A stretch of 64,000 bases of DNA, taken from the NCBI RefSeq assembly GCF_006516955.1, contig NZ_VHLG01000001.1, forward strand, positions 496,001 through 560,000. Reading direction: 5' to 3'. A program made the translations under genes and the position numbers. The notes beneath the pieces were generated by a model that had not been told where the DNA came from, did not search any database, and saw nothing but the letters and a program-made list of their open reading frames with translations. Positions within the stretch are counted from its first letter, which is position 1. Each line of letters starts with the position of its first letter. This document shows positions 7,871 to 64,000 of this stretch, piece after piece. Source of the DNA: Martelella alba. Its GTDB lineage: Bacteria; Pseudomonadota; Alphaproteobacteria; Rhizobiales; Rhizobiaceae.

Positions 7871-7900
7871 AACGCCCGGCCTTAGCGCCGGGCGTTTTTG
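7871..7900 (+). terminator. Intrinsic terminator of rplI
   Basis: Ten-bp stem AACGCCCGGC (7871-7880) with GCCGGGCGTT (7886-7895), five-base loop, then a T tract. It begins 23 bases after the rplI stop. Confidence 0.9.
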
Positions 7901-9608: not shown

Positions 9609-9668
9609 GGTGTGATTTTGGCGGAATACGCTAAGATTGACCAATAAGGTGCAACAAACGGCGGTTCC

Positions 9669-10844: not shown

Positions 10845-10865
10845 TTTCAAGATAAAGCGATCTTC

Positions 10866-12272: not shown

Positions 12273-12365
12273 AATGATCTGGCGCGTTCTGACCCCGGAC
12301 CGGCTCCCCCGGCAGGACAACAGCGCTTTGGCCCAAGCTATCTGGAGCAATGGAAACCGATTACT

Positions 12366-12935
12366 ATGTTCGACCTGATCGTCATCGGCGTTTTGCTGTT
12401 TTCCGCTCTTCTCGCCATGGTGCGCGGGTTTTCGCGTGAAATTCTTTCAATCGCCGCCTGGGCCATTTCGGCCGCCGCCGGCTATTTCCTCTATCCAATG
12501 CTGCAACCCGCCGTGTCCGGTTTCCTGAACGATCCGCGCCTTGCCATTGCCGCCGCCTTCGCCATCATCTTCCTTGTCGTGCTGATCATCGTTTCCTTTG
12601 TGACCACGCGCCTGGCTGACTACATTATCGACAGCCGTGTTGGCGCACTTGATCGTTCGCTCGGTTTTGTCTTCGGCCTTCTGCGCGGCCTTTTGATCCT
12701 GGTTGTAGCCGTCGCATTCTGGAACTGGCTCGTTGGCGACGCGCAATCGCCCGACTGGGTGCGCAATGCCAAGTCCAAACCCGTGCTGGATGCGCTGGCC
12801 TCCAAGCTTGAAGCCCTGCTTCCCGGCGGCAGCAACCCCGCCACGCAGGGCCAGGCATCGGCGAAAAATATGCTCTTCGCTGCCACTGACACCTATTTCT
12901 TTGCCGTTCCGCAAAATTTGATACGCGGAGTATGA
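12366..12935 (+). CDS. cvpA: CvpA family membrane protein
   Basis: Small inner-membrane protein of 189 residues with four hydrophobic segments in the first 125 residues (about 1-20, 25-45, 60-80 and 100-122). CvpA was first described as needed for colicin V production and is linked to envelope stress. MFDLIVIGVLLFSALLAMVRG is typical. It sits directly before purF, as in many proteobacteria, and its stop overlaps an alternative upstream purF start (ATGA at 12932). Confidence 0.9.
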   Translation: MFDLIVIGVLLFSALLAMVRGFSREILSIAAWAISAAAGYFLYPMLQPAVSGFLNDPRLAIAAAFAIIFLVVLIIVSFVTTRLADYIIDSRVGALDRSLGFVFGLLRGLLILVVAVAFWNWLVGDAQSPDWVRNAKSKPVLDALASKLEALLPGGSNPATQGQASAKNMLFAATDTYFFAVPQNLIRGV

Positions 12936-12997
12936 GGCAAAAGCGCAAAAACACGCTATATAGAGCCCTGCCCTTCCCCCTGACGCCGGATCGAGAC

Positions 12998-14488
12998 ATG
13001 AACAGCAGACCGCAGATTGAAGACGATTTCAGTATCGATGATGACACGCTTCACGAAGAGTGCGGCGTGTTTGGCATTCTGGGGCACAGTGATGCCGCGG
13101 CCCTAACCGCGCTTGGCCTGCACGCCCTGCAGCACCGTGGACAGGAAGCCGCCGGTATCGTCTCCTATGACGGGCAGCAGTTCCGCTCCGAGCGCCATAT
13201 GGGCCTGGTCGGTGATCACTATACCGACCCCGCCATGCTCGCCAATCTGCCGGGCGCCATGGCGATGGGCCATGTGCGCTACTCCACCACCGGCGGCACG
13301 ATCCTGCGCAACGTCCAGCCGCTTTTCGCCGAGCTGGAAGTCGGCGGCATTGCCATTGCCCATAACGGCAATTTCACCAATGGCCTGACCATGCGCCGCC
13401 GCCTGATCGCCGATGGCGCCATCTGCCAGTCAACCTCCGATACCGAGGTGGTGCTGCATCTGATCGCCCGCTCGCGCGCCAAAACCTCGTCCGACCGCTT
13501 CATCGACGCCATCAGCCAGATGGAAGGCGGCTACTCGATGATCGCCATGACGCGCACCAAGCTGATCGCCGCGCGTGACCCGAACGGCATTCGCCCGCTG
13601 GTGATGGGCGAGCTCGACGGCAAGCCGATCTTCTGCTCGGAAACCTGCGCACTCGACATTATCGGCGCGAAATTCGTCCGCGACGTTGAAAATGGCGAAG
13701 TGATCATCTGTGAAATCCAGCCCGATGGCTCGATCACCACCGATGCGCGCAAGCCGGAAAACCCGACGCCCGAGCGTCTCTGTCTGTTCGAATATGTCTA
13801 TTTTGCCCGTCCGGACTCGGTCGTCGGTGGCCGAAACGTCTATCAGACGCGCAAGAATATGGGCTTTAACCTCGCCAAGGAGGCGCCAGTTGATGCCGAT
13901 GTCGTGGTTCCGGTGCCCGATGGCGGCACGCCGGCGGCAATCGGCTATGCCCAGGAAAGCGGCATCCCCTTCGAGCTCGGCATTATCCGCAACCACTATG
14001 TCGGCAGAACCTTCATCGAGCCGACCCAGCAGATCCGCGCCTTCGGCGTGAAGCTGAAACATTCGGCCAACCGGGCCGTCATCGAGGGAAAGCGCGTTGT
14101 GCTGGTTGACGATTCAATCGTGCGCGGCACAACCTCCGTCAAGATCGTGCAGATGCTGCGTGATGCCGGCGCCCGCGAAGTGCATATCCGCGTTGCAAGC
14201 CCGATGATCTTCTTCCCGGATTTCTACGGCATCGATACGCCCGACCGCGATAAGCTTCTGGCCAACAACCACGCCACGCTTGACGATATGAGCCGCTATA
14301 TCGGAACCGATTCGCTGGCCTTCCTGTCGATTGACGGGCTCTACCGTGCCGTTGGCGGCAAATCGCGTGATCCGGCGGCCCCTCAGTTCACCGACCATCA
14401 GTTCACAGGTGATTATCCGACCCGCCTTCTCGACAAGGAACATGAGAACGAGTTCCGCAAGGTCGAGCTTCTGGCCGGAAACGGCTGA
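12998..14488 (+). CDS. purF: Amidophosphoribosyltransferase
   Basis: First committed step of purine synthesis: glutamine plus PRPP gives phosphoribosylamine. The class II glutaminase nucleophile is Cys22 in HEECGVFGIL, implying removal of a 21-residue propeptide. The PRPP-binding loop is VVLVDDSIVRGTTS. I place the start at the ATG at 12998 (MNSRPQIEDD). An earlier in-frame ATG at 12932 overlaps cvpA by four bases (ATGA) and would add 22 basic residues, so the start is not certain. The stop overlaps the next start by one base (TGATG). Confidence 0.95.
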   Translation: MNSRPQIEDDFSIDDDTLHEECGVFGILGHSDAAALTALGLHALQHRGQEAAGIVSYDGQQFRSERHMGLVGDHYTDPAMLANLPGAMAMGHVRYSTTGGTILRNVQPLFAELEVGGIAIAHNGNFTNGLTMRRRLIADGAICQSTSDTEVVLHLIARSRAKTSSDRFIDAISQMEGGYSMIAMTRTKLIAARDPNGIRPLVMGELDGKPIFCSETCALDIIGAKFVRDVENGEVIICEIQPDGSITTDARKPENPTPERLCLFEYVYFARPDSVVGGRNVYQTRKNMGFNLAKEAPVDADVVVPVPDGGTPAAIGYAQESGIPFELGIIRNHYVGRTFIEPTQQIRAFGVKLKHSANRAVIEGKRVVLVDDSIVRGTTSVKIVQMLRDAGAREVHIRVASPMIFFPDFYGIDTPDRDKLLANNHATLDDMSRYIGTDSLAFLSIDGLYRAVGGKSRDPAAPQFTDHQFTGDYPTRLLDKEHENEFRKVELLAGNG

Positions 14489-15243
14489 TGCAAGGCACAG
14501 ATCAACGCCCTCTTGAAGGACGGCTGGCGCTGGTGACCGGCGCCTCGCGCGGTATTGGCTATTTTACCGCTCTGGCGCTTGCCCGGGCCGGTGCCCATGT
14601 GATTGCAACGGCACGTACCGTCGGCGGACTTGAGGAGCTTGACGACGCGATCAAGGCCGAAGGGCTGGGATCTGCGACGCTGGTTCCCTTCGACCTTGCT
14701 GATATGGAAGCGATTGACCGCCTTGGCGGTTCGATTTTTGAACGCTGGGGCAAGCTGGATATTCTGATCGCCAATGCCGGCGTTCTCGGCTCAGTCTCAC
14801 CGCTCGCCCACACGGAAGCGAAAATCTTCGAACAGGTGATGGCGATTAACGTCACCGCAACCTGGCGGCTGATCCGCTCGACCGAACCGCTTTTGATCAA
14901 GTCAGACGCGCCGCGCGCCGTACTGCTCTCATCTGGTGCGGCCCATAGCTGCAATCCCTTCTGGGGCCCCTACGCCGCATCAAAAGCGGCCGTTGAAGCC
15001 ATGGCACGCTGCTGGGCCGGAGAGACCGCCCATCACGGCCTGAAGGTTACCAGCTTCAACCCCGGCCGCACACGCACCGCAATGCGGGCACAGGCAGCGC
15101 CCGGCGAAGACCCGATGACACTGCCCCATCCCTCGGAAGTCGCTGCCAGCATCATCCCCCTCGTCTTGCCGAGCTTTACCGAAAGCGGAAAACTCTATGT
15201 GTTCCGGGAAGGTCGGCTGATGGACTATCGCGAACCGCAATAA
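14488..15243 (+). CDS. Short-chain dehydrogenase/reductase
   Basis: NAD(P)-dependent oxidoreductase of 251 residues. The cofactor motif is TGASRGIG near residue 17; NAG appears as IANAGVLGS; the catalytic Ser (LLSSGAAHS) and YAASKAA motif are present. Its ATG overlaps the purF stop by one base, so it is translationally coupled to purine synthesis, and the purF-SDR pairing recurs in rhizobial genomes. The substrate is unknown. Confidence 0.88.
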   Translation: MQGTDQRPLEGRLALVTGASRGIGYFTALALARAGAHVIATARTVGGLEELDDAIKAEGLGSATLVPFDLADMEAIDRLGGSIFERWGKLDILIANAGVLGSVSPLAHTEAKIFEQVMAINVTATWRLIRSTEPLLIKSDAPRAVLLSSGAAHSCNPFWGPYAASKAAVEAMARCWAGETAHHGLKVTSFNPGRTRTAMRAQAAPGEDPMTLPHPSEVAASIIPLVLPSFTESGKLYVFREGRLMDYREPQ

Positions 15244-15252
15244 CCATCCTAC

Positions 15253-15306
15253 GGCGGCAGCAATGTTCGGCAATCGCAATGGCATTTCCGACATAATGCT
15301 GCCGCC
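15253..15306. terminator. Long hairpin between convergent SDR and porin genes
   Basis: GGCGGCAGCA (15253-15262) pairs perfectly with TGCTGCCGCC (15297-15306), and the inside extends imperfectly (TGT..CGG with CCGACA). There is no T run on either side. It probably acts as a transcription barrier or mRNA end for the plus-strand SDR, ten bases after its stop. Confidence 0.5.
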
Positions 15307-15334
15307 AAACATGCGCCATGCACCACATTCAGAG

Positions 15335-15371
15335 CAAAAAAAACCGCGCAGGCCGCAAGCGGCGCGCGCGG
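15335..15371 (-). terminator. Intrinsic terminator of the porin gene
   Basis: On the minus strand CCGCGC-CGCCGC pairs with GCGGC-GCGCGG and is followed by a run of eight T residues. It begins about 26 bases after the porin stop. Confidence 0.85.
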
Positions 15372-15396
15372 ATCAAGTTAGCCCCCATTGAGCCTC

Positions 15397-16059
15397 TTAG
15401 AATTTATAACCCAGGCCGACCATTGCCGCGCTCTGATTCATGTTCAGCTTCAAGCCATCAATCTTGAAGGTGTCGTTCGGTGATTCCGGATAATCGGTAT
15501 AGCGATATTCAACCCGGCCAAACAGATTTTGGGTAAAGGCGAAATCGACACCCGCACCAAATGTCCAGCCATTGAAGTTCTCGCTCCGACTGTCATCTCC
15601 GACCTTCAACTCGGCATTGGTGATGGCCCAGCCGCCCGTGCCGTAGAAAAGTACACGGTCCATCGCATAACCAAGGCGCCCGCGAACACCGCCGCCCCAG
15701 TCCATCTGGACCTTCAACGGAACGCCAGCGATGTTTTTCGTGTCATCTGCCCAGTTGTAATTGAGTTCGCCCTCAACGCCCAGAACCAGATTATTCGAGA
15801 ATTGATAGTCATAACCGGCGAAAATTCCACCTGCGAAGCCATCTGGATTGTATTTCGTAAATTTATCACCGCCAGATTTCGGTGTAATTTCCGTCCATGA
15901 AAAGTCACCCTGACCACCAAGATAAAATCCGGTCCAGTCAAAGGACGCAGGAAGAACTGGTGCAGGTGTTATAACGGCTGGCGTTACAACGACATCAGCT
16001 GCCATAACTCCGGCAGAACTCAAGAAATAGACTGCAAGCCCAGCTACGACTTTCTTCAT
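15397..16059 (-). CDS. Outer-membrane beta-barrel protein, Omp25/Omp31-like
   Basis: Predicted small outer-membrane porin of 220 residues. A Sec signal peptide (MKKVVAGLAVYFLSSAGVMA) is cleaved after AMA-like residues near position 20. The mature part starts with a Pro/Val-rich stretch, then SFDWTGFYLGGQGD, the hallmark of the rhizobial Omp25/31/RopB group, and ends with an aromatic residue in GLGYKF as barrel proteins do. It is less GC-rich than its neighbours and transcribed alone from an AT-rich upstream region. I infer a structural or surface role; ligand specificity cannot be told. Confidence 0.85.
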   Translation of the reverse strand: MKKVVAGLAVYFLSSAGVMAADVVVTPAVITPAPVLPASFDWTGFYLGGQGDFSWTEITPKSGGDKFTKYNPDGFAGGIFAGYDYQFSNNLVLGVEGELNYNWADDTKNIAGVPLKVQMDWGGGVRGRLGYAMDRVLFYGTGGWAITNAELKVGDDSRSENFNGWTFGAGVDFAFTQNLFGRVEYRYTDYPESPNDTFKIDGLKLNMNQSAAMVGLGYKF

Positions 16060-52010: not shown

Positions 52011-53015
52011 TCACTCCGAGGAATGCAACGGGGCATCGAGCGTGAGTGCATAGTCGACAGGTTTGCGCTGTGACACCGGCACTCTCAACTGATCCGGCAA
52101 CACACCGAACCCGACCATCGTTATCACCAGCTCACTCTCCGGCAATCCGGTCAGGTGACGTAGCCTGTCATCCTGATCATGGGTGACAGACCAGTTCAGC
52201 ATAACCGCCCCAAGGCCTTCAGCATGAAGGCCGTACGCGAAACTCATGGCAAACATCCCGCCGTCAACCCAGGCCTGATAGCGTTCATGGGCGTGCTCCC
52301 AATGCGCCAGATCAGAGGTGATGATGGCGATACCGCCAAGTTGGTCACCAAAGCCGCGATTGCCGTTTTGCAAGGCGGCAATTTTCGCAATATCAGCCGG
52401 ATCGGTCCATACCCGTGCACGACATGTCTGCCGGTTGCAGGACGAGGGCGATTGCTGGGCGCAGCGTACTGCCCTCTCTATCGCCCCCTTGGGAACGGGT
52501 TCTTGCTTGTAAGTCCGTATGGAATGCCGGGCCTCGGCGAATTTCAGAAAGTCCATCATTCCATCATGGCGAATCTGATCCGCCGTTACCGTTTCCACAC
52601 CGCCCGACAGGCCACCGGTGACTTTCCCGATATGACGGGTGACCACGGTGCTGATCTCCCCCAGATCCAGATCGGCTGCCGCGTTGAAGGCAAGGTAATT
52701 CTGCAAGGTTCGCAAAGCGATTTCGACGGTGGCATCACAAGCGAAATTGTCGACATAAGTGTCGATATCGGCAGCCAGCTGCAAGGCCTTTTCCAACCCG
52801 TGACCAGGTCTGGCACCTTCAAGAGCAAGGCCGTATTCCAGGAAATGCAGTCCGATCGCGATTCTTGCCCGCAGGTTCTCACGGCTCTTTGCAGCCCCGG
52901 TAAAGGAAGCACGCCAAAACCGGCGTGCATCGCGCAACGTATTGGACATGAGTTTGTCAAAAAGCGCGCGGCGCTCTGTCATTGAAGGGCGAGGCTCGGG
53001 AAAGGCGGCAGACAT
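52011..53015 (-). CDS. Nitroreductase family protein with an N-terminal extension
   Basis: 334 residues in two parts. The C-terminal ~185 residues form a flavin (FMN) nitroreductase fold: RHSIRTYKQEPVPKG, QQSPSSCNRQTCR, and YGLHAEGLGAVMLNW. The first ~150 residues are helical (HFLEYGLALEGARPGHGLEKAL) and resemble the N-terminal part of nitroreductases found in exopolysaccharide clusters. The ATG at 53015-53013 has GGAG upstream; an upstream TTG at 53108 is possible. It diverges from the racemase operon. The substrate is unknown. Confidence 0.82.
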   Translation of the reverse strand: MSAAFPEPRPSMTERRALFDKLMSNTLRDARRFWRASFTGAAKSRENLRARIAIGLHFLEYGLALEGARPGHGLEKALQLAADIDTYVDNFACDATVEIALRTLQNYLAFNAAADLDLGEISTVVTRHIGKVTGGLSGGVETVTADQIRHDGMMDFLKFAEARHSIRTYKQEPVPKGAIERAVRCAQQSPSSCNRQTCRARVWTDPADIAKIAALQNGNRGFGDQLGGIAIITSDLAHWEHAHERYQAWVDGGMFAMSFAYGLHAEGLGAVMLNWSVTHDQDDRLRHLTGLPESELVITMVGFGVLPDQLRVPVSQRKPVDYALTLDAPLHSSE

Positions 53016-53320
53016 GAACACGTGCTCCAGGATCAGTTTTCCGGAAGAATGTTGCCATTTCCCCGTCCAGGCAAGAGGCACCTCGGCAACCTCGGATAGG
53101 TTTCGCAAGAGAAATCCAAAATTTATATATATATTTATATAATTGTTATTATTATATTTTTTTAATTTTACCCATCCATATGGATAGTATTTTCAATACA
53201 TTCCGTCGAAATTAATGACCCAAATTAGCGTAAATCCTATCCGTGAAAGACCTTCTCACACTTCACACATGGACCCACACTGAACAGATAGAAAAATGAC
53301 AAAACGCAGGGATCGCAGTT
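53016..53320. promoter_or_regulatory. Divergent control region of nitroreductase and hydantoin operon
   Basis: A 305-base gap with a strongly AT-rich core (about 53118-53172, long TATATA runs) and a perfect 12-bp palindrome ATCCATATGGAT at 53174-53185, a good operator candidate. It must hold promoters for both directions. The regulator could be the MalT-like protein at the far end or one outside the window. Confidence 0.5.
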
Positions 53321-54085
53321 GTGGCTCATTCAGTTCATGTCCGGATTATTTCGCCGATCACGACGCTCGGCTTTCGCTCGGACGCCGCCGTAAAATCGTT
53401 GGAAACAGCAGGTCTGACGGTCTCGGCAAGCCAGATCGCCAAAGGCCCTGCATCGATTGAGAGCGAATATGAAGGCGCGATGGCTGCGCCGGAAACGGTA
53501 CGCAGGATCATTGAGGCCGAACGCGAAGGCGTCGATGCCTGTGTGATTGACTGCATGGGAGATCCCGGCCTCAAGGCAGCGCGTGAAGCCGTTTCCATTC
53601 CCGTCCTCGGCCCCTGCAATACCGGCATGCATATTGCTGCCATGCTCGGTCACAAATTCTCGGTGATCACCATCGTGAAACGATTGATCCCGCAGTTTGA
53701 GAATGCCGCCGCGCTGGCCGGCCTTTCTTCCCGCATGGCATCAGCCCGCTCGGTCGAAATTCCCGTACTAGACCTCGAAGCAGACATGGACAGAACCCGC
53801 AGGATCCTGATTGACGAGGCAGAAAAGGCGGTCGAGCTTGATGGCGCCCACGCCATCATCTTCGGCTGCACCGGCCTCTTCGGCTGCGCTGCGGCCGTGC
53901 GTGACGGCCTGCTGCAACGCGGCATCGATGTTCCCGTCATCGATCCCATCCCCACTGCTGTCAATATCGCCGCTGCGCTGGTCCGAAGCAATCTCAGCCA
54001 ATCCGCACGCACCTACCCGCTGCCACCGGACAAGGCCATGCCTGGCTATGACATGCCCGACCTGCAGCTCAAGGCGGCGGAGTGA
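53321..54085 (+). CDS. Hydantoin/aspartate-glutamate racemase family protein
   Basis: 254-residue racemase of the cofactor-independent two-cysteine family. The catalytic Cys residues are in VIDCMGDPGLKAARE and IIFGCTGLFGC, a hydantoin-racemase-like pattern (HyuE). The start is GTG at 53321. It is the first gene of the operon and lies four bases before the first permease. Hydantoin racemase is favoured over glutamate racemase because of the HyuA and DUF917 partners; the substrate is not proven. Confidence 0.82.
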   Translation: MAHSVHVRIISPITTLGFRSDAAVKSLETAGLTVSASQIAKGPASIESEYEGAMAAPETVRRIIEAEREGVDACVIDCMGDPGLKAAREAVSIPVLGPCNTGMHIAAMLGHKFSVITIVKRLIPQFENAAALAGLSSRMASARSVEIPVLDLEADMDRTRRILIDEAEKAVELDGAHAIIFGCTGLFGCAAAVRDGLLQRGIDVPVIDPIPTAVNIAAALVRSNLSQSARTYPLPPDKAMPGYDMPDLQLKAAE

Positions 54086-54089
54086 ATTC

Positions 54090-54989
54090 ATGACGGATGT
54101 GACGGTCTCACAGACGGCTTCGAAACGACCAGCCTGGCTCAAGCCCAATCTATGGTGGCTTGTTCTGCCAGCGGTGCTGTTCATAATCCTGTTTTTTCTT
54201 ATTCCGGTTCTGTCGCTGTTTCTGTCGAGTTTCGACAAGGCGATGCCCGGGCAGATCACCTTTCAGGGGCATCTTTCGCTCGACAACTACGAGCGGATAT
54301 TCACCCGGTCCCTGTACTACATGGCAATCTGGCGTTCGGTCTGGATCGGCGCCGTGGTTGCTGCGGTCTGCCTTGTTATCGGCTATCCGCTTTCCTTCAT
54401 CATCGCGCGCACCCTGAAACCGGGCATAGCGACGCTGCTGACCATTCTCGTCTTGAGTTCGATGCAGCTTGACATGGTGATCCGGCTTTACGGTCTGATG
54501 GTGCTGATGGGCGACAAGGGGTTGATCAATTCCGGCCTGATGGCACTCGGCATCATCTCCGAGCCGCTGCCGCTGATGTATAACGCATTCGGTGTTGTGG
54601 TCGGCCTGGTACAGGTCACCCTGCCCTTCATGATCCTGTCGCTCATCGGTGCGATCCGTTCCATCAATCCTTCGCTTGAAGAAGCCGCCCGCAGCCTCGG
54701 CTCCTCACGGTGGCATGTTATGCGCACCATTACCTGGCCACTGTCACTTCCCGGTGTTTACGCAGGAACGCTGCTGGTATTTGCTCTGGCGATTTCGTCT
54801 TATGTGGTGCCGGCATTGATGGGCGGCTGGAAGGTCATCACCCTGCCGATCCACATCTATCAGCAGATAGCCGAGGTCGGGCGCTGGCAATTCGGCGCCG
54901 CCGTCGCTGCCATCCTGTTCATCACATCACTGTTTGCCATGGGTCTCTATATCCTGGCCCTGCGTCGCAATGCCGGAGGTCGCGTCTGA
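54090..54989 (+). CDS. ABC transporter permease (PotB-like)
   Basis: 299-residue inner-membrane permease with six helices and the EAA loop EEAARSLGSSRWHVMRTITWPLSLPG. It resembles the polyamine/opine permease group. Its stop overlaps the next start by one base (TGATG), so the two permeases are coupled. It works with the binding protein and ATPase downstream. Confidence 0.9.
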   Translation: MTDVTVSQTASKRPAWLKPNLWWLVLPAVLFIILFFLIPVLSLFLSSFDKAMPGQITFQGHLSLDNYERIFTRSLYYMAIWRSVWIGAVVAAVCLVIGYPLSFIIARTLKPGIATLLTILVLSSMQLDMVIRLYGLMVLMGDKGLINSGLMALGIISEPLPLMYNAFGVVVGLVQVTLPFMILSLIGAIRSINPSLEEAARSLGSSRWHVMRTITWPLSLPGVYAGTLLVFALAISSYVVPALMGGWKVITLPIHIYQQIAEVGRWQFGAAVAAILFITSLFAMGLYILALRRNAGGRV

Positions 54990-55795
54990 TGGAAGATGTC
55001 AATCCCATCCCCTTCACCTTCCGGGTCATCGCCGCGATTGCGCTTCTCGTGCTGCTGGTCCCTGTCGCCATCGTGGTGCTGGCCGGGCTGAATTCCGGAG
55101 ACTATCTGACATTTCCCCCGCAGGGCTTCTCGCTGCGCTGGATCAGGAACTTCTTCGTTTCGCCCACCTTCCTGCCCGCTTTCAAGCTTTCCTTTGCGCT
55201 TGCGCTTGCGACCATGGTCATCTCGACATTTCTCGGCACCCTGGCTTCAATTTTCCTGACGCGCAGCACCTCGAAGTCGCGTGAATTTCTCAGGGCAATC
55301 TTCTTTCTTCCGGTCGTCCTGCCCGGTGTGGTCCTGGGAATTGCGCTCTATGTCTTTTTCATCTGGACGAATGTCGGCCTGGCCCGAAGCCTCACCGGCC
55401 TCATCATCGGCCATGTCCTGGTCACCATGCCCTTTGTGATCGCCACAGTGACCGCGTCGCTGGTTGATCTCGATCTGTCGGTTGAAGAAGCCGCGCGCTC
55501 GCTTGGCGCAACACCGGTTCAGGCGTTCATGAAAGTCACACTGCCGTTGATCACGCCCGGAATATCCGCCGGATCGATCTTCGCCTTCATCGTTTCCTTC
55601 GGCCAGTTCGAACTCACCCTCTTCCTGTCGACGCCAAATCTCCAGACACTGCCTTTGGCGATCTACTCGTCGCTTCGCTACGCCTTTGAGCCCACGGCCG
55701 CGGCAGCCGGCATCTTCGCCATCTGCCTGGTGACGGTCTCAACACTTATCTCGACGCGCCTTTCCAACCTCAAAAAACTGCTGAGCCGGCGATAA
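54989..55795 (+). CDS. ABC transporter permease (PotC-like)
   Basis: 268-residue permease, six helices, EAA loop EEAARSLGATPVQAFMKVTLPLITPG. It is the second half of the heterodimer with the gene upstream, to which it is translationally coupled. Confidence 0.9.
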   Translation: MEDVNPIPFTFRVIAAIALLVLLVPVAIVVLAGLNSGDYLTFPPQGFSLRWIRNFFVSPTFLPAFKLSFALALATMVISTFLGTLASIFLTRSTSKSREFLRAIFFLPVVLPGVVLGIALYVFFIWTNVGLARSLTGLIIGHVLVTMPFVIATVTASLVDLDLSVEEAARSLGATPVQAFMKVTLPLITPGISAGSIFAFIVSFGQFELTLFLSTPNLQTLPLAIYSSLRYAFEPTAAAAGIFAICLVTVSTLISTRLSNLKKLLSRR

Positions 55796-55822
55796 CCGGC
55801 CTTACTCCAGAAAGGGACAAGC

Positions 55823-56923
55823 ATGACCATTACCAAGAACGGCCTCACCAGACGCACCCTGCTCAAGGCAGGTGCGGCAACAGCAGGTGTCAGCCTGTTC
55901 AACATCAACCACGCATTCTCGCAGGACGTGACCTATGACGGTGGCGTTTTCGATGCCGGCGGCGCGGTTTTCAACATTGCGGGCTGGGGCGGTTACTGGG
56001 AAGAAACCCAGAACAAGCTGGTGCTTGATCAGTTCCAGAAGGATTTCAACTGCCAGGTCCGCTATGACAGCACCTTCCCCTGGTTCCCGAAATATGTTGC
56101 TGCCGGTCCCGAAAACCCGCCCTTTGCGATGAACAACTGGAACATGCCGGAAATGTTCAAGACGGCTGGCGCGGGCGACTATTTCATGCCGGTTGACGAA
56201 ATCAGGGCCAATGTTCCCAACACCTCCGAGCTCTGGGACTTCTCGATGAAGACCGGCATCGGCATCACCTGGGCCTTTTCGCGCTATTGCTATGTCTACC
56301 GCACCGATGCCGGCATTACGCCGGCGAGCTTCAAGGATTTCTGGTTGCCGGACTATGCCGGAAAGCGCGGCACCTACATCACCTCCAACACCCTGCAGAT
56401 GATGTTCTTCATGGCATCCTGCGCCCAGTTCGGCAGCGGAGAAACGGATTTTGATGCGGGATATGAGGCCATGAAAAAGGCCATGCCGATGAAGATTTCC
56501 GACTTCACCGGAAACATGGCTGCCCTTGTCGAACGTGGCGAAGTCAACATTGCCGTTCAGTCCGATGCAGAAGCGCTGCTGCAGAAGGAAAAAGGCGTTC
56601 CAGTCGAACTCTATTATTGGGATGAATATAAGGGCATTCTTACCCAGACCCAGACGATCAGCAAATATGCAGATCCGACCAGTAAGAAGCTCGCCTTCGC
56701 GCTGTTGAACCGGATGCTCTCGCCCGAGTTCCAGTCTGGCTTTGCCGATGAATTCTGGATGCGCCCAACCAACAAGAATGCCGTCATCCCCGAAAAGATG
56801 ACGAAGCTCGGCGTCACCAATACCGCGGACGCAACCGACGGGCTGCATATCCCCGACTGGTCTGCCTATCTTGCCGATGAAATCGACATTGTCGAAACCG
56901 TCAACGAGATCTTTGGCTCCTGA
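55823..56923 (+). CDS. ABC transporter substrate-binding protein, Tat-type signal
   Basis: 366-residue periplasmic binding protein of the spermidine/putrescine or family-8 type. It begins with a twin-arginine signal (LTRRTLLKAG then a hydrophobic stretch ending HAFSQ), so it is probably exported folded. Ligand residues cannot be read from sequence. It sits between the permeases and the ATPase. Confidence 0.88.
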   Translation: MTITKNGLTRRTLLKAGAATAGVSLFNINHAFSQDVTYDGGVFDAGGAVFNIAGWGGYWEETQNKLVLDQFQKDFNCQVRYDSTFPWFPKYVAAGPENPPFAMNNWNMPEMFKTAGAGDYFMPVDEIRANVPNTSELWDFSMKTGIGITWAFSRYCYVYRTDAGITPASFKDFWLPDYAGKRGTYITSNTLQMMFFMASCAQFGSGETDFDAGYEAMKKAMPMKISDFTGNMAALVERGEVNIAVQSDAEALLQKEKGVPVELYYWDEYKGILTQTQTISKYADPTSKKLAFALLNRMLSPEFQSGFADEFWMRPTNKNAVIPEKMTKLGVTNTADATDGLHIPDWSAYLADEIDIVETVNEIFGS

Positions 56924-57000
56924 GCCAGACACAGGCTGGGCCGCCATTCATCGGCGGCCCACATACCCGCATTTTCATCTGACAAACGAGGCTAATCTCC

Positions 57001-58095
57001 GTGTCCGACATCCGGCTCGAACAACTCACCAAGCGCTATGGCGAATCGACTGCCGTCGATTCCCTGTCGCTGCATATCCAGGAAGGCGAGTTCTACGCGC
57101 TGCTCGGCCCGTCGGGTTGCGGCAAGTCGACCACGCTCAGAATGGTGGCGGGTTTTGTGAAACCGACAACCGGCCGCATTCTGGTCGGCGGGCAGAACCT
57201 GACACCGCTGCCGCCAGAAAAGCGTGACATCGGCATTGTCTTTCAAAACTATGCGATTTTTCCGCACATGTCGGTGGCCGACAATATCGCCTTCGGCCTG
57301 AAGCTCAGAAAGAAGTCGCGCGATGAAATCGAAACATCCGTCAAGGCTGCACTCGACCAGGTTGGCCTGAGTGGCTATGGCGATCGCTTTCAGCGCAACC
57401 TCTCCGGCGGCCAGCAGCAGCGCGTCGCGCTTGCACGCGTCCTGGTCACCGAACCACGCATCCTGCTTCTGGACGAGCCACTTTCAGCACTCGACAAGAC
57501 CCTGCGTGAGGAAATGAAGTTCTGGATCAAGGAACTTCAGCAAAATCTTGGAATTACAACGATTTATGTCACGCATGATCAGGATGAAGCGCTGACCATG
57601 TCCGACAGGATCGGTGTGATGCGCGCCGGACAGATCGAACATTCGGGAACACCGCAGCAAATCTACGAGGAACCGGCGACGCTTTTCGTCACCACCTTCA
57701 TCGGTCAATCCAACGTGCTTTCGGTCACGGCACGCAACGTCCAGGATGGGATCGCGACCTTCAGTCTTCGCGACAAGGTGCTGAAGGCAAGCACGCGTCA
57801 TCTCATTGCCAAGGACAAACCCGCAAAGCTGATCATCCGGCCCGAAAATGTGCTGATGGGACCGGAAGCTGAAGCCCAGGGCGTTTCGCTCATTTCCGCC
57901 ACTGTGAAAGACGAAACCTATCAGGGATCGATGCTTCGCTATCGGCTGGATGTCGAAGGCCAGGAGATTGTTGCCGAACGGCAAAACCAGCTGCATCTGA
58001 AACGCTGGACACGGGGCGAAGAGGTCACGATCGGCTGGACGGAACAAAGGGCGCGACTGCTGCCTGACGACCCGACGGTCACCACCGTCGGCTAG
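57001..58095 (+). CDS. ABC transporter ATP-binding protein (PotA-like)
   Basis: 364-residue ATPase: Walker A GPSGCGKST, Q-loop VFQNYAIFP, signature LSGGQQQR, Walker B ILLLDEPLSALD, and a C-terminal TOBE regulatory domain (residues ~240-364). The start is GTG at 57001. It completes the PotABCD-type importer, and an inverted repeat follows. Confidence 0.92.
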   Translation: MSDIRLEQLTKRYGESTAVDSLSLHIQEGEFYALLGPSGCGKSTTLRMVAGFVKPTTGRILVGGQNLTPLPPEKRDIGIVFQNYAIFPHMSVADNIAFGLKLRKKSRDEIETSVKAALDQVGLSGYGDRFQRNLSGGQQQRVALARVLVTEPRILLLDEPLSALDKTLREEMKFWIKELQQNLGITTIYVTHDQDEALTMSDRIGVMRAGQIEHSGTPQQIYEEPATLFVTTFIGQSNVLSVTARNVQDGIATFSLRDKVLKASTRHLIAKDKPAKLIIRPENVLMGPEAEAQGVSLISATVKDETYQGSMLRYRLDVEGQEIVAERQNQLHLKRWTRGEEVTIGWTEQRARLLPDDPTVTTVG

Positions 58096-58142
58096 AGCCT
58101 GCCCCGACCGGAGCAAAGCGAGGATCGGCAAGCGCTCTAGCC
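58090..58142. repeat. Inverted repeat after the ABC ATPase gene
   Basis: GGCTAGAGC (58090-58098) pairs perfectly with GCTCTAGCC (58134-58142) around a 35-base loop; the arm overlaps the stop of the ATPase. No T run follows. It may attenuate between the importer and the enzyme genes, or be a small dispersed repeat. Confidence 0.55.
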
Positions 58143-58247
58143 CGCAGGGTCAACGTCGACATTTAAAAACAGGAACGAGAGCATCTGGCGCGACATAGCT
58201 GCGCGCCGGAACAGGAAAACGATTGTCTTCGATTGAAAGGTTTCACA

Positions 58248-59801
58248 ATGCGCGTAGGCATTGATGTAGGCGGCACGAATACGGATGCCGTCATCTTGGA
58301 TGGCAACACCGTTGTTGCAGGGTGCAAATCACCGACCACGGAGGATGTGAGTTCCGGCATTGCGTCGGCATTGTCCATCGTCATGGGAGAAAGCGGCGTC
58401 AAGCCCGAAGCCATCGAAGCCGTGATGATTGGCACCACCCACTTCACCAATGCCGTTGTCGAACGCCGCCGCCTGCTTGAGGTCGCAGCGATCCGCATTG
58501 GCCTGCCTGCCACCCGTGGCGTGCCGCCGATGACCGACTGGCCGGCAGATCTTGCTGATACGCTTGGCCGCCATACCTTCATGCTGCGCGGCGGTCACGA
58601 ATTCGACGGTCGCGAGATTGCCCCGCTCGATGAAGCAGGGCTTCTCGACGTTGCCCGGCAGATCAAGGCCCGCGGCATTCAATCGGCGGCCATCACCTCG
58701 GTTTTTTCGCCGGTAACAGCGGTCATGGAACTGCGGGCGGCCGAAATCCTGCAACAGGAATGCCCCGGCGTTGCACTTTCACTCAGCCATGAGATCGGCC
58801 GGGTCGGTTTTCTGGAGCGCGAAAACGCCGCCATCATGAATGCCTGCCTCGCGGAACTCTCCACCAAGGTGGTCAATTCCTTCCGCACGGCCTTGCGCGA
58901 CAAGGGCATCACCGCGCCCTTCTTCATCAGCCAGAATGATGGAACTCTCATGACGCCGGAGCATGTGGAACGCTATCCGGTCCTGACCTTCGCATCTGGC
59001 CCGACCAATTCCATGCGTGGCGCCGCCCGCCTCGCCGGACTTGGCGAGGCCATGGTGGTTGATATTGGCGGAACGACATCCGATGTCGGCATGCTGATGC
59101 AGGGTTTCCCGCGCGAAAGCGCCGTCGCCGTCGATATTGGTGGCGTTCGCACCAATTTCCGCATGCCCGATGTGCTGGCGATCGGCCTTGGCGGAGGATC
59201 GCTGGTGCGTGATGACGGCGCCCGGATCGGCCCGGATTCCGTCGGTTATGAAATCACCTCCAAGGCACTGGTCTTCGGTGGCGACATACTGACGACCACC
59301 GACATCATCGTTGCCGCCGGACTGGCAGATATTGGCGATGCCTCCCGCGTTGCCCATCTGCCAAAATCAACGATCGAAACCGCAATCGACACCATGCACC
59401 GCATGGTCGATGAAGCTGTCGACCGCATGAAAACCTCGGCGGATAAACTACCGGTCATTCTTGTCGGCGGTGGCTCTGTGCTGATCTCTCGCGATCTCCC
59501 TTCAGCCAGCGAAGTCATTCGCCCGGAAAATGCCGGCGTTGCCAATGCCATTGGTGCAGCGATCGCTCAGGTCGGCGGGGAAGTCGATCGGATCTACGCC
59601 ATGGAAGGCCGCCAGCGTGACGATGTATTGAATGAAGCCAAGGCAGAAGCCTCTGCCAATGCCGTTGCCGCTGGCGCGAAGGCAGAAACGGTCAAGATCA
59701 TGGACATTGAGGAAGTGCCGCTTGCCTATCTTCCCGGTTCCGCGACCCGGATCAGGGTCAAGGCCGTGGGTGATCTCGCGCTTCAGGAGGCCTCAAAATG
59801 A
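58248..59801 (+). CDS. HyuA-like hydantoinase/oxoprolinase family ATPase
   Basis: 517-residue protein of the hydantoinase A/oxoprolinase fold. The phosphate-binding start is MRVGIDVGGTNTDAV, with a later VVDIGGTTSDVG and an ILVGGGSVL segment. Full HyuA is near 690 residues; this shorter form commonly accompanies DUF917. The ATG at 58248 has an AAAGG site. Its stop overlaps DUF917 by four bases (ATGA). No HyuB partner is present, so ATP-dependent ring opening is not shown. Confidence 0.85.
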   Translation: MRVGIDVGGTNTDAVILDGNTVVAGCKSPTTEDVSSGIASALSIVMGESGVKPEAIEAVMIGTTHFTNAVVERRRLLEVAAIRIGLPATRGVPPMTDWPADLADTLGRHTFMLRGGHEFDGREIAPLDEAGLLDVARQIKARGIQSAAITSVFSPVTAVMELRAAEILQQECPGVALSLSHEIGRVGFLERENAAIMNACLAELSTKVVNSFRTALRDKGITAPFFISQNDGTLMTPEHVERYPVLTFASGPTNSMRGAARLAGLGEAMVVDIGGTTSDVGMLMQGFPRESAVAVDIGGVRTNFRMPDVLAIGLGGGSLVRDDGARIGPDSVGYEITSKALVFGGDILTTTDIIVAAGLADIGDASRVAHLPKSTIETAIDTMHRMVDEAVDRMKTSADKLPVILVGGGSVLISRDLPSASEVIRPENAGVANAIGAAIAQVGGEVDRIYAMEGRQRDDVLNEAKAEASANAVAAGAKAETVKIMDIEEVPLAYLPGSATRIRVKAVGDLALQEASK

Positions 59802-60889
59802 AGCTCGGAACACAGGATCTGAAGGATCTGGCTGTCGGCGCTGCCTTTCTTGGCACCGGCGGTGGCGGCGACCCCTATATCGGCCGCCAGATGGTGCAGC
59901 AATGCCTTGATGAGGGGCTGTCCGTCGATCTGATCGACCCCGACACGCTGGACGATGATGCCCTGGTCATACCGACAGCCATGATGGGCGCCCCGACCGT
60001 GCTGGTCGAGAAACTGCCGTCCGGTGAAGAGGCGATCCTGTCGCTCAGGCGCCTTGAAAAGCGCCTCGGAAAGACAGCCACCCACACGATGCCGATTGAA
60101 GTGGGTGGCATCAATTCCACCATCCCGCTTCTGGTCGGTGCGCGCCTTGGACTGCCGATCGTCGATGGCGATGGCATGGGACGGGCCTTTCCGGAACTGC
60201 AGATGGAGACCTTCGGCGTTTATGGCATATCAGGCTGCCCGATGGCGGTTTCCAACGAATGGGGTGACTGCACGCTGATCGAGGCCCGCTCCAATGAGAT
60301 GATGGAATGGCTGTCGCGTGGCGTGGCCATCCGCATGGGGGGGGCAGCCTATATCGCCGAATACGCCATGTCCGGCGCTGAGGTGAAACGCACCGCCGTA
60401 CCGCGCACGCTGTCGCTGGCCATTCAGGTCGGCAAGGTGCTGCGCGAGGCCAAGGCCAGTCATCAAAGCCCGTTCGAGGCGCTCCTCGCCTTCATGCCGA
60501 AGACGCTCTACAGCTATGCCACGATCATCTATTCTGGAAAGATCGCCGATATTCAGCGGGAAACCCGGAATGGCTTTTCCGTAGGCCGGGCGCGCATCGA
60601 GGGCTTTGCGCCCTATTCCAGCGTCATGGAAATCGAAATCCAGAATGAAAATCTGATCGCCCGGGTTGATGGCAAGGTTCGCGCCATCGTGCCGGATCTG
60701 ATCTGCATCATGGATAGCGAAACGGCCGAACCGATCACTACGGAAGGCCTGCGATACGGTCAGCGGATCACGGTCATTTCCGTTTCCGTGCCGGAAATCA
60801 TGCGCACGCCTGAGGCATTGGCGGTTTTCGGACCGAAATGCTTCGGCCTTGACGAACCCTACACCAAGATCGAGGAACTTTCGGCATGA
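59798..60889 (+). CDS. DUF917 protein, first copy (S-methyl thiohydantoin desulfurase family)
   Basis: 363-residue DUF917 protein with the conserved GTGGGGDPYIG loop near residue 20, IVDGDGMGRAFPELQMETF in the middle and RYGQRITVISVSVPEIMRTP near the end. It is coupled to the HyuA-like gene by ATGA and to the second copy by ATGA at 60886. The family is linked by name to thiohydantoin desulfurization; the activity here is inferred. Confidence 0.85.
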   Translation: MKLGTQDLKDLAVGAAFLGTGGGGDPYIGRQMVQQCLDEGLSVDLIDPDTLDDDALVIPTAMMGAPTVLVEKLPSGEEAILSLRRLEKRLGKTATHTMPIEVGGINSTIPLLVGARLGLPIVDGDGMGRAFPELQMETFGVYGISGCPMAVSNEWGDCTLIEARSNEMMEWLSRGVAIRMGGAAYIAEYAMSGAEVKRTAVPRTLSLAIQVGKVLREAKASHQSPFEALLAFMPKTLYSYATIIYSGKIADIQRETRNGFSVGRARIEGFAPYSSVMEIEIQNENLIARVDGKVRAIVPDLICIMDSETAEPITTEGLRYGQRITVISVSVPEIMRTPEALAVFGPKCFGLDEPYTKIEELSA

Positions 60890-61971
60890 GAGAGATCCGT
60901 TCTGGAGACCTGGAAGACATAGCAGTCGGTGCAGCTGTTCTTGGCACTGGCGGCGGTGGCGACCCCTATATCGGCAAGCTTCTCGCCCGTGGCGCCATTG
61001 AACAGCATGGCCCGGTCAAGCTGATTTCTCTTGAAGAACTGCCGGATGATGCGCAGATCGTCACCTGCGGCGCCATGGGTGCACCGACAATCCTGCTGGA
61101 AAAGGTCCCCTCCGGCGATGAAATGCTGATGGCCCTGCGCCATTTCGAGGACGTGACGGGAAAAAAGGTCGAGGCGCTGATGCCATTTGAGGCCGGCGGG
61201 CTGAATTCCTGCCTGCCGATCGTACTCGCCGCCCAGACCGGATTGCCGCTGGTCGATGCCGATGGCATGGGACGCGCATTCCCCCAGCTCGAAATGGAAA
61301 CATTTCATGTTTATGGGGTGAAAGCGGCACCGGTTGCCATGGCAGATGAACGTGGCAATCTCGCAATGGTTGAAACGGAAGATGCAGCCAAGGCCGAATT
61401 TCTGGCCCGTGGCGTATGTATCCGCATGGGTGGTCAGGTCAGCCTGGTCAATTATCCGATGGATGGCAGAACGGCCAAACGTGTGTCAGTCCCCGCGACC
61501 ATGTCGCTGGCGCAGGATATCGGCCGCGTCATTCGCCAGGCCAAGCAGGCAAAGCAGTTGCCTGTGGCATCGCTGATCGACTTCCTCAAGACGACCCATT
61601 ACGGCCACGCCGAACTGCTTGGTTCCGGCAAGGTCGTCGACATCGAACGCAAGGTGGAAAATGGCTGGTCCGTCGGCATTGTCACGATTGCGCCATTCGA
61701 TGAAGGGCAGCCCTATGCCATTCGCATTCAAAACGAGAACCTTCTGCTGGAACGCGACGGCAAAGTCCTGGCCGTTGTTCCGGACCTGATCTGTGTGCTG
61801 GACATAGACACGGCCGAGGCCATCCCGACAGAACGCCTGCGCTATGGCCAACGCGTCAACATCCTCGGTATCCGGGTCCCGGAGATCATGCGAACGCCAG
61901 AAGCGCTGGCCGTTTTCGGTCCTTCGGCCTTTCACATTGATGCAGCCTATGAACCGCTTGGCGGCTCCTGA
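60886..61971 (+). CDS. DUF917 protein, second copy
   Basis: 361-residue paralogue of the preceding protein: the same GTGGGGDPYIG loop, LVDADGMGRAFPQLEMETF, and RYGQRVNILGIRVPEIMRTP. The two probably form a heterodimer or have split substrates. Its 3' end overlaps the convergent LuxR regulator by 25 bases (61947-61971). Confidence 0.85.
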   Translation: MREIRSGDLEDIAVGAAVLGTGGGGDPYIGKLLARGAIEQHGPVKLISLEELPDDAQIVTCGAMGAPTILLEKVPSGDEMLMALRHFEDVTGKKVEALMPFEAGGLNSCLPIVLAAQTGLPLVDADGMGRAFPQLEMETFHVYGVKAAPVAMADERGNLAMVETEDAAKAEFLARGVCIRMGGQVSLVNYPMDGRTAKRVSVPATMSLAQDIGRVIRQAKQAKQLPVASLIDFLKTTHYGHAELLGSGKVVDIERKVENGWSVGIVTIAPFDEGQPYAIRIQNENLLLERDGKVLAVVPDLICVLDIDTAEAIPTERLRYGQRVNILGIRVPEIMRTPEALAVFGPSAFHIDAAYEPLGGS

Positions 61972-64000
61972 GATATAAGGCCGCTCTGGCGCGCCACCGA
62001 CACGGCCAATGCGCGCCGGGAAACGCCCAGTTTGGAAAACAGGTTTTTCAGATGGAATTTGACCGTCGGCTCACCAACATTGAGCCGGCGGGCAATGGCC
62101 TTGTTCGGCAGCCCCTCGGCCAGAAGCGACAGGACCTCGACTTCCCGGTGACTGAGCAGTCCTCCGCGCGGCACGCGACGGACTTCGGGGATCACGACAG
62201 CCGCCAGATATTGCGCCGTCCTGTGCCCCATCCGGCTCAATCCGACACGGCGAACCATTTTGCGGATGGTCTCGGCAAGCGGCCGCCCCTCGTCACGATA
62301 TTGCTGTACCAGACCGGCCGGAAACGCCAGTGCCGCCACCTCTCCCAATGCGGTGATCGCCGCATCGTCATCGCCGGTCCGGGCGTAAAGCTCCGTCAGA
62401 AGCAGTTGCGCGCGCATCAGATGTTCGGCCCTTCGCGCAGCGCGCATGTCCGACACCAGCCCTTCCAGCAATATCTGCGCCTCCTCCAGCCGGTCCTGAC
62501 GCAGCCGCAGCCGCCCGATAGCAAGGCGTGCGTCCCACCACTCCCGATGGGTCGGCCAGGCAGAGCCGTCCGATATTGCCGGCCAATGCTGGGCCGTGGC
62601 CTCCGCAGCATCCAGCATGCCTGCGCGGGTCTGCAACTCACATCTCAAAACGAAAAGCGACTGCCTCAGGCGCGGCAGATCGCGTGCCTGTGCAAGAGCA
62701 AGACCGCTGTCAATCACCTCATGGGCAGCAGCTTCGGCCCCTTCGGTGAAACGTGATCTTGCCAGAACCCCATAGGCCTCCACATAGAAATCAACCCAGC
62801 CTTCGCCGCGCTCCATGATCGCGAGATCGCGTTGCATCAACTTGCCTGCTTCACTCACATTGCCCTGGCGATAGCGGATTGCGGCCAAAGGCACATCGGC
62901 AATCGCCAGCAGATTGGCGTCATTCCAGTACTGCCCGTGGATGATTGCGAAGGCTTTATCGAGATATTCAAGCGCTTTGAGACAATTGTTATCCAGCATG
63001 CTGATAAAGCCCAGATGGATAAACATGAAGGCCTGAGGATAGGTCGACCCCTCCTCCTGATAGAGGGCCAGCCCGCGCTCTGCTGTCTCCCTGGCGGATG
63101 GCAGATCCCCCATACGCGTGTAGCAGGTGGCAAGATGGTTATAGATCCAGCCAAGCCGCCAGGTATTTTCCTTGCGTTCCCCCTTGGCTTCTTCACGCAA
63201 TCGGGCAATACCGGCCATATCCATGGCGCGATCTTCATAGACCTCATTGAGGCTGTCGATGTGGCGTAGCATCCCCACCCAGTTTTCACTGGCAGGAATC
63301 CGTCCTTGCCGCGTGTCATCCAGAAGGGCATTCAGGACATCGCGCGCTTCGGTAATTTTTCCGGTCTTGCCCAGCATCACGGCGCGGCATAGCCGCAATG
63401 AAGGGGTCTTGAGAACGACCTGATGGGGAACCGCACGAATAATACCGCGCAGCACGGTATAGCCGGCTCTCAGGAAAAGCTCGACGCCCCCTGCATGCTC
63501 GATCGTTCTGACCGCCAGTTCATATTCACCGGCAATGGAAGAATGCAGTACAGACTTGGCCAGATTGCCATTTTCCGCGAATAGCCGGGCGGCGTGAATA
63601 TGACGCGCCTTGCGTTTCTCCGCCGTTTCGCCGCCATGTTGAATTTCCAGAGCACGCGCAACAACCGTTGACAGCCGAAACCAGCCGGCATTCTGCTCCT
63701 CCGTCTCAATCAGCGGTGCCAGTTTTTCGATCTTTCGCAAAGTCGCGTAATCATAGGGCAGTTCAGCCAGGGCAGACGCGATCTTCAGGGTAAAATTCTC
63801 GATCCCTTCAACGGCGCTGAGAACCCGGCTCTCCACCTCATCGAGAGAGGGAAACACCTCCTCATGCAGAAATTCACGATAGACGCGAGATTCCCCCTCA
63901 ATCAAAGCAGAGCGCTCAAGCCCACGCACGCCACGCTCCAATTCGCTGAGGGCCAGACGGTTCAGCGCCGGCCAGCCCCCCAGTGTCTCGCCGATCCTGT
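61947..64000 (-). CDS. MalT-like LuxR family regulator, C-terminal part (cut by window edge)
   Basis: Large ATP-dependent transcription regulator, truncated by the right edge. The visible 683 residues are open to 64000 and begin in the AAA/STAND ATPase region (GETLGGWPALNRLA), then a long helical TPR-like superhelix, and end with a LuxR helix-turn-helix (LSHREVEVLSLLAEGLPNKAIARRL near the C-terminus, given here only as motif). Walker motifs lie outside the window. It converges on the DUF917 operon and may control it; the ligand is unknown. Confidence 0.85.
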   Translation of the reverse strand, partial: RIGETLGGWPALNRLALSELERGVRGLERSALIEGESRVYREFLHEEVFPSLDEVESRVLSAVEGIENFTLKIASALAELPYDYATLRKIEKLAPLIETEEQNAGWFRLSTVVARALEIQHGGETAEKRKARHIHAARLFAENGNLAKSVLHSSIAGEYELAVRTIEHAGGVELFLRAGYTVLRGIIRAVPHQVVLKTPSLRLCRAVMLGKTGKITEARDVLNALLDDTRQGRIPASENWVGMLRHIDSLNEVYEDRAMDMAGIARLREEAKGERKENTWRLGWIYNHLATCYTRMGDLPSARETAERGLALYQEEGSTYPQAFMFIHLGFISMLDNNCLKALEYLDKAFAIIHGQYWNDANLLAIADVPLAAIRYRQGNVSEAGKLMQRDLAIMERGEGWVDFYVEAYGVLARSRFTEGAEAAAHEVIDSGLALAQARDLPRLRQSLFVLRCELQTRAGMLDAAEATAQHWPAISDGSAWPTHREWWDARLAIGRLRLRQDRLEEAQILLEGLVSDMRAARRAEHLMRAQLLLTELYARTGDDDAAITALGEVAALAFPAGLVQQYRDEGRPLAETIRKMVRRVGLSRMGHRTAQYLAAVVIPEVRRVPRGGLLSHREVEVLSLLAEGLPNKAIARRLNVGEPTVKFHLKNLFSKLGVSRRALAVSVARQSGLISQEPPSGS

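Follow-up and report, generated by a model that had tools for sequence, protein, structure and literature searches.

A short HyuA subfamily paired with DUF917 proteins, and not with HyuB, in an uptake operon of Martelella alba

Introduction

HyuAB, the caprolactamase CapAB and N-methylhydantoinase are ATP-dependent enzymes that have in common with the operon studied here a HyuA-fold ATPase with conserved phosphate motifs and a predicted activation of cyclic amides. For caprolactamase, the available part of PMC8453981 proposes that CapA performs the activation, and that hydrolysis follows at a site of CapB where His and Asp bind metal. Here, we analyse an operon of Martelella alba that lies in a stretch of 64 000 nucleotides (nt), hereafter the window, corresponding to positions 496001–560000 of contig C11 in a genome of 4.99 Mb. 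Its eight plus-strand genes, spanning 53321–61971 of the window, encode a hydantoin-type racemase, a Pot-type ATP-binding cassette (ABC) importer, a HyuA-like protein and two DUF917 proteins. Compared with the described systems, the window HyuA is approximately 170 residues shorter (517 amino acids (aa) versus around 690 aa for long HyuA) and lacks the GxxPGP motif, while DUF917 is found instead of HyuB.

DUF917 proteins also include the thiohydantoin and S-methyl thiohydantoin desulfurases (NF058529 and NF058532), which have the same two Pfam domains and the same core residues as the window proteins. However, the window proteins score far below the cut-offs of both models and are switched at E71, E101, N106, D125 and E170. 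They also adjoin HyuA, whereas the desulfurases adjoin urocanase-like genes, and not HyuA, in the stretches examined.

Hydantoinase and DUF917 genes have been listed together before, with no function given in the accessible portions of the reports: alongside a cytosine permease in Lactobacillus rhamnosus (PMC7513527) and a ‘probable permease’ in Clostridioides difficile (PMC12915319). These sets share the same two families with the window, irrespective of HyuA length, but have a permease where the window has a Pot-type ABC importer and a racemase. DUF917, hydantoin racemase and AroM are enriched near cyclodipeptide oxidases according to the available text of PMC11055893, which calls DUF917 not experimentally characterised. 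The joint presence of DUF917 and hydantoin racemase matches the window, but the gene-cluster section of that paper does not mention HyuA, and the Martelella genome has no cyclodipeptide oxidase subunit CDOB (PF19585). In the parts of two further papers that are available, a DUF917 gene appears in a table (PMC9503626) and diketopiperazine-degrading enzymes were described in 2013 as little known (PMC3852281). Our literature search, with subscription journals mostly outside its coverage and many sources accessible in part, yielded four papers that use the word DUF917, no DUF917 biochemistry in the accessible text of these four, and no instance of the phrase ‘S-methyl thiohydantoin desulfurase’. 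PMC4617892, PMC4222082 and PMC13405746 contributed nothing specific to the subject.

Association of short HyuA with DUF917

The first-pass annotation of the window, made from the sequence alone, had pointed out that the operon contains no HyuB and neither a cyclic amidohydrolase nor a carbamoylase, and profile searches agree. The whole genome holds six HyuB genes (PF02538), on contigs C54, C33 (two), C22, C53 and C6, and none on C11. It also encodes eight HyuA N-terminal domains. Six belong to long proteins (open frames of 699–719 aa), each adjoining a HyuB and none near DUF917. The other two are short (517 and 514 aa, from open frames of 544 and 519 aa, respectively) and are found in the window and on contig C3, where both genes adjoin DUF917 and neither adjoins HyuB. 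A hyuB just past position 64000, which the annotation had named beforehand as evidence against its view, is not there; what follows instead is the remainder of a gene for a MalT-type LuxR regulator. We thus rejected a hidden HyuB downstream of the operon, on the basis of this LuxR gene and the genome-wide HyuB positions.

The pairing was surveyed at 85 loci. Of these, 80 are the best-scoring among 579 relatives (from 595 candidate stretches) and hence do not constitute a random sample; the other five are those of the window, of contig C3 and of three genomes of the class. The 80 named loci come from Alpha- and Gammaproteobacteria, Chloroflexota, Actinomycetota, Bacillota, Myxococcota, Thermaceae and metagenome-assembled genomes of Prosthecobacter and of an archaeon. 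With distances taken between the edges of tblastn matches, a same-strand DUF917 gene lies within 250 nt of the short HyuA in 80 of the 85. In the remaining five it is found at 261 nt (L070), 1.1 kb (L101) and 6.5 kb (L066), or on the opposite strand at around 2.8 kb (L119 and L120). This count replaces one based on open reading frames (61 of 84 within 120 nt), in which overextended starts and the removal of overlaps had introduced a distortion. The contiguous run has a single DUF917 gene in 40 loci; 30 loci have two such genes, 11 have at least three and four have none, all lower bounds given that some contigs end close by. HyuB is present in six loci; four of these genes are on the other strand, 3.6–9 kb away, beside a long HyuA. 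The annotation had proposed asking, by gene neighbourhood, whether HyuB absence is conserved: it is near-constant in the short-HyuA subfamily, with an adjacent HyuB in only two of the 85 loci. The missing HyuB is thus the mark of a HyuA subfamily and not a peculiarity of the window operon.

The same association was seen in an order sample (121 genomes, at most 12 candidates scored per genome) and a phylum sample (398 genomes, at most three), which overlap in genomes such as that of Martelella and G134. ‘Strong’ DUF917 genes are here those above 170 bits, a limit set afterwards in the score gap (176 to 64 bits in the order sample, 176 to 103 in the phylum sample). In the order sample, the strong DUF917 genes (14) and the short HyuA genes (10) are confined to the same eight genomes, where their positions make them direct or tandem neighbours. 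The eight genomes also have 35 HyuB genes, but no short HyuA has any of these within 60 kb. Four weak DUF917 genes (21–64 bits) were also detected, none of them by a short HyuA. In the phylum sample, 16 of the 17 strong DUF917 genes adjoin a short HyuA, as do none of the 10 weaker ones that exceed the family cut-off (58–103 bits). Across 58 class genomes, full-length matches to the short HyuA, besides itself, scored 558–662 bits and the next match 124 bits, a gap that sets short HyuA apart as a separate subfamily. A HyuA–DUF917 fusion, sought as proof of contact, was not present among the open reading frames of the loci. We conclude that short HyuA and DUF917 form a fixed and widespread partnership, in which DUF917 probably stands in for HyuB as the partner subunit. 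Genes annotated merely as ‘hydantoinase/oxoprolinase family protein’ therefore include a separate subfamily with a different partner.

Sequence and fold of the short HyuA

Residues D6, G8-G9, T10, D13, K27, P252, D272, G274-T276 and D279 are identical in all 84 short HyuA proteins aligned, and phosphate motifs 1 and 2 are both kept in every one, the window copy included. For CapA, the phosphate motifs together with Lys32, Asp11, Pro272, Asp295 and Asp302 are assigned to the nucleotide and phosphoryl-transfer region in the available text of PMC8453981, and the invariant residues of short HyuA fall on the CapA nucleotide and phosphoryl-site residues described there. N230-D231 and N254 are invariant among the short proteins and different in the long ones. 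Short HyuA proteins of other phyla are 52–63% identical to that of the window in 48 of 49 other alignment rows, and 75% identical in one.

The short HyuA was modelled with AlphaFold2 at high confidence (predicted local distance difference test (pLDDT) 93.2). Structural comparison using Foldseek yielded hits with 9h03, 5svc, 5svb, 5m45, 5l9w and 6yra, all with E values of at most 1e-22, and TMq values of 0.61–0.76 to CapA and related chains. The nearest folds are those of CapA, N-methylhydantoinase and the acetone and acetophenone carboxylase subunits (E ≤ 6e-23); other ASKHA proteins appear from 7e-07 on.

Residue classes of DUF917

Near-full-length DUF917 proteins were compared, the HyuA-linked ones being chosen by linkage and the desulfurases by model or neighbour. 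All of E71, E101, N106, D125 and E170 are present in 125 of 126 HyuA-linked proteins (the exception is L087_d3). None of the five is found in the seven desulfurase-type proteins, each encoded beside a urocanase-like gene, which have Q101, S106, V125, S170 and P, Q, K or A at position 71; four further desulfurase-type proteins of the phylum sample agree (L168, L169, L172 and L173). A core of GGGG, G64, P66, D123, R129, R174, N283 and E284 is common to both classes. Both window copies retain every class residue, so neither looks dead, and on sequence grounds both belong to the HyuA-linked class. The DUF917 tree unites them in one group (support 0.951), within which they branch separately and each joins its Roseibium counterpart (0.937 and 1.0). 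The model of copy a (pLDDT 96.9) has a single PDB match under E 0.001, namely 2o3i (CV_3147), whose title gives no function.

Four other proteins, L165, L166, L167 and L170, have neither HyuA nor urocanase within about 7 kb. L167 and L170 show other residue sets again, and judging by their residues the four appear to represent at least one further DUF917 class.

Proposed mechanism and alternatives

We consider the odds slightly in favour of an operon that imports a small cyclic amide or ureide and opens it in an ATP-dependent reaction carried out by the short HyuA and a DUF917 hydrolase. The Pot-type transporter would bring in a chiral small cyclic amide or ureide, whose isomers the racemase would interconvert at the acidic ring carbon. 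The short HyuA, a predicted ASKHA-fold ATPase, would activate the ring carbonyl (as an iminol phosphate or equivalent), and a site in DUF917, in place of HyuB, would then support attack by water on the activated carbon to give a ring-opened product. The desulfurase DUF917 proteins may act on the same kind of carbon, already sulfur-bearing in their substrate. Going by family names, we take the reaction of these HyuA-free relatives to be thiohydantoin desulfuration; with sulfur already on the substrate carbon, an ATPase partner would be superfluous.

A broader proposal, to which we give somewhat less than an even chance, is that short HyuA and DUF917 constitute an unrecognised and widespread class of ATP-dependent cyclic-amide hydrolases with DUF917 in the HyuB role. 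DUF917 would then hydrolyse activated ring carbons in general, acting alone where sulfur provides the activation (as in thiohydantoins) or with HyuA on plain lactam or ureide carbonyls that HyuA has activated, and the clade-specific importers (Pot, Dpp, NCS1 and TonB) would adapt one chemistry to different substrates. With this, a widespread protein family that had no assigned function acquires a role open to testing. If true, it would represent a second solution to ATP-driven opening of amide rings, useful for amino-acid biocatalysis and for microbial recycling of cyclic amides.

Several observations weigh against ATP-dependent ring opening by this pair. None of the 84 short HyuA proteins has the adenosine motif GxxPGP at the position where all 10 long ones compared have it (two of the 10 are truncated at the start), so that ATP use is not certain, and D279 is Lys in seven of the 10 long proteins and hence not constant in the wider family. 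The DUF917 model gave no Foldseek match to HyuB, and none of the DUF917 positions with ≥90% conservation is a His or Cys, which makes a CapB-like His/Asp metal site unlikely. L165 and L166 keep E101, D125 and E170, but not N106, and have no HyuA nearby; the acids are thus no proof of HyuA coupling, and a strict rule equating the two was abandoned. For one strong DUF917 gene of the phylum sample, G840, the 15 kb around it show no HyuA match, although its open frame is only 236 aa. The window operon encodes neither a dipeptidase nor a carbamoylase, and the importer type varies between clades. Finally, HyuB stands directly beside the short HyuA in L095 and L101. In both it is on the same strand, and there is long-HyuA sequence upstream, which is clear in L095 and amounts to 81 aa at the start of the contig in L101; these are possibly mixed systems.

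The loss of GxxPGP and of some 170 residues relative to long HyuA is also what might be expected if DUF917 alone were the ring hydrolase and short HyuA an accessory ATPase that serves in reactivation, maturation or assembly, as other ASKHA helpers do. Sub-threshold matches of short HyuA with GlmL/MutL and BadF-type ATPases point the same way, as do the desulfurases, which within the stretches examined are not encoded beside a HyuA. However, helper status sits poorly with phosphate and phosphoryl-site residues that are identical in 84 of 84 proteins, and with nearest folds that are substrate-activating subunits, well ahead of other ASKHA proteins. We regard this as unlikely, while taking it to be the most serious competitor of the proposed joint action of HyuA and DUF917.

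The nature of the substrate was approached through the racemase and the transporters. Of the 18 racemases from the loci that were aligned, 16 have Cys78 and 17 have Cys183, and the window racemase has both of these residues, presumably the catalytic cysteines. Together with the HyuA-type ATPase fold this supports a cyclic amide or ureide, which the first-pass annotation had thought plausible, and the uptake-plus-processing operon that it had described is likewise supported. The PotB, PotC and PotD equivalog models are far below cut-off for the window importer and only the TIGR01187 PotA subfamily passes; NCBIfam and PDB comparisons gave no informative match as to the ligand of the binding protein. 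Among 84 operon runs (L066 was dropped as its HyuA frame was not called), Pot-type genes are found in nine, Dpp-type in 19, an NCS1 permease in 20, a TonB receptor in five and none of these in 31, while 11 runs have a racemase, six of them Pot-type. These are lower bounds, since crude gene calls break some runs, that of the window included. Pot-type loci stand together in the leaf order of the short-HyuA tree, except L045 and the second copy in L044. As importers differ between clades, the substrate cannot be read from the family, and the chemistry looks constant with a variable substrate. The best fit for the window operon is a cyclic amide or ureide that is small and chiral, with hydantoin-like and cyclic-dipeptide-like compounds both compatible.

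The Dpp-type peptide ABC genes of those 19 runs are one reason to think that the family as a whole opens cyclic dipeptides (diketopiperazines), or related cyclised peptides, to linear dipeptides. An M19 dipeptidase is encoded near the module on contig C3 and beside it in L082, a cyclodipeptide oxidase subunit adjoins DUF917 in L142 and L144, and the enrichment around cyclodipeptide oxidases in the available text of PMC11055893 includes DUF917, hydantoin racemase and AroM. Yet the NCS1 (cytosine/purine/allantoin) permeases of 20 runs point elsewhere, and the window operon combines a Pot-type importer with the lack of any peptidase. CDOB was detected in nine of 47 genomes (those of 46 of the 80 named loci plus Martelella), near the module in two of the 47 and nowhere in the Martelella genome. 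A general link with cyclodipeptide oxidases was therefore not upheld, and survives as part of this peptide alternative, which we judge improbable. In L142 the oxidase subunit (PF19585) lies between the DUF917 genes and the short HyuA; in L144 it is beside two DUF917 genes, with the short HyuA around 8 kb further on.

The name of the DUF917 family had led the annotation to suggest a thiohydantoin-like substrate. In such a pathway for thiohydantoins or S-alkyl-thiohydantoins, DUF917 would remove sulfur and HyuA would open the resulting hydantoin, and the two DUF917 copies could serve two steps. Their scores do not bear this out: 77.1 and 104.7 bits against NF058529 (cut-off 440; 76.2 and 104.1 in the genome search) and 101.5 and 108.9 bits against NF058532 (cut-off 450). 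Across 385 class genomes, five genes match NF058529 at 574–608 bits, one at 261 and the rest at ≤112.5. One of the five is on contig C53 of the Martelella genome itself (608.7 bits), adjoining a thiourocanate hydratase (1026.6 bits, cut-off 930), with an aromatic amino acid lyase near. By profile search the window operon, unlike the C53 gene, has no thiourocanate hydratase-like neighbour, and no sulfur-handling gene was recognised in it. With a true desulfurase elsewhere in the genome, low scores and switched class residues, we set the thiohydantoin pathway aside as an account of the operon and consider it very improbable; the ‘S-methyl thiohydantoin’ name is a likely misannotation trap, not transferable to HyuA-linked DUF917. 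The C53 locus (L007, C53:194501-214400) contains the thiourocanate hydratase (NF058530; 7373-9082), the desulfurase (NF058529; 9048-10154), ABC transporter genes (10200-14171) and the lyase (14137-15717), and is a probable ergothioneine-type degradation locus.

That a degenerate HyuA still works with one of the six HyuB proteins encoded elsewhere, DUF917 being unrelated in role, is scarcely credible given that every HyuB adjoins its own long HyuA and that short HyuA is conserved across phyla in fixed linkage with DUF917.

Operon layout and neighbouring genes

The families that the annotation had assigned to the eight genes were recovered by profile searches, with a weak, sub-cut-off match for the binding protein (table 1). 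Intergenic spacings are, in gene order, 4, −1, 27, 77, 152, −4 and −4 nt. The tight packing with overlaps of 1–4 bases that had been described thus holds at three of seven junctions, and a 152-nt gap precedes the HyuA gene. This spacer forms hairpins only (z −1.66, not notable in a check of mRNA structure). An Rfam search of the region found nothing beyond an upstream tRNA gene (RF00005; 51579-51665, approximately 1.7 kb from the operon), and promoter and terminator matches did not exceed those of shuffles.

Table 1. Genes of the operon and its flanks, with positions in the window.
Feature	Position	Strand	Supporting matches
Nitroreductase-family protein, 365 aa; divergent neighbour, optional partner	52011..53108	-	PF00881, 56.4 bits
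Asp/Glu/hydantoin racemase; GTG start	53321..54085	+	PF01177, 133.8 bits; PDB matches with hydantoin and allantoin racemase
ABC permease, PotB-like	54090..54989	+	PF00528 (BPD_transp_1); top NCBIfam PotB, below cut-off
ABC permease, PotC-like	54989..55795	+	PF00528 (BPD_transp_1); top NCBIfam PotC, below cut-off
Periplasmic binding protein, PotD-like	55823..56923	+	SBP_bac_6, 23.1 bits (Pfam cut-off 24.6); weak PotD and 4edp matches
ABC ATPase, PotA-like; GTG start	57001..58095	+	ABC_tran and TOBE_2; TIGR01187, 376.7 bits (cut-off 355.6)
Short HyuA, 517 aa; without C-terminal region of long HyuA	58248..59801	+	PF05378; positions 1-173 of 291 of PF01968
DUF917 protein, copy a	59798..60889	+	PF06032 and PF20906 (S-Me-THD domains), at least 199 bits each; HyuA-linked residue set
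DUF917 protein, copy b	60886..61971	+	PF06032 and PF20906, at least 199 bits each; HyuA-linked residue set
MalT-type LuxR regulator, 871 aa in full; convergent, continues past window	61947..64000	-	PF17874 and PF00196

Roseibium (L041), Rhizobium johnstonii, Aminobacter and Aureimonas have the same gene order, so the operon arrangement is not due to chance. The MalT-type LuxR gene, which overlaps the second DUF917 gene by 25 bases, is likely to encode the regulator of the operon. A related gene is found at the same operon end in L041, L042 and L043, and LuxR-type genes in Rhizobium, Aminobacter and Aureimonas. At the other end, nitroreductase homologues lie near the operon in L041, L042, L043, L044 and L053, and a gene annotated as nitroreductase occupies the same place in R. 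johnstonii; none is listed beside the operon in the (incomplete) plasmid gene tables of Aminobacter and Aureimonas. The window nitroreductase has an extra N-terminal region and weak similarity to albonoursin synthase (E 0.0065). Between it and the divergent racemase gene, positions 53109-53297 are very AT-rich (GC 0.286) and form a probable regulatory region.

In R. johnstonii, Aminobacter and Mesorhizobium, the short-HyuA/DUF917 module is carried on plasmids typed as conjugative (L126, L127 and L128), which makes it probable that the module is mobile. The second short HyuA of the Martelella genome (L005, C3:109001-129000; 4685-15128) is encoded with one DUF917 protein and flanked by two AroM genes, one of them fused to a LuxR DNA-binding domain. 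This locus also holds two peptide-type ABC binding proteins, the M19 dipeptidase and an enolase-superfamily enzyme, and looks like one for the use of cyclic or modified peptides.

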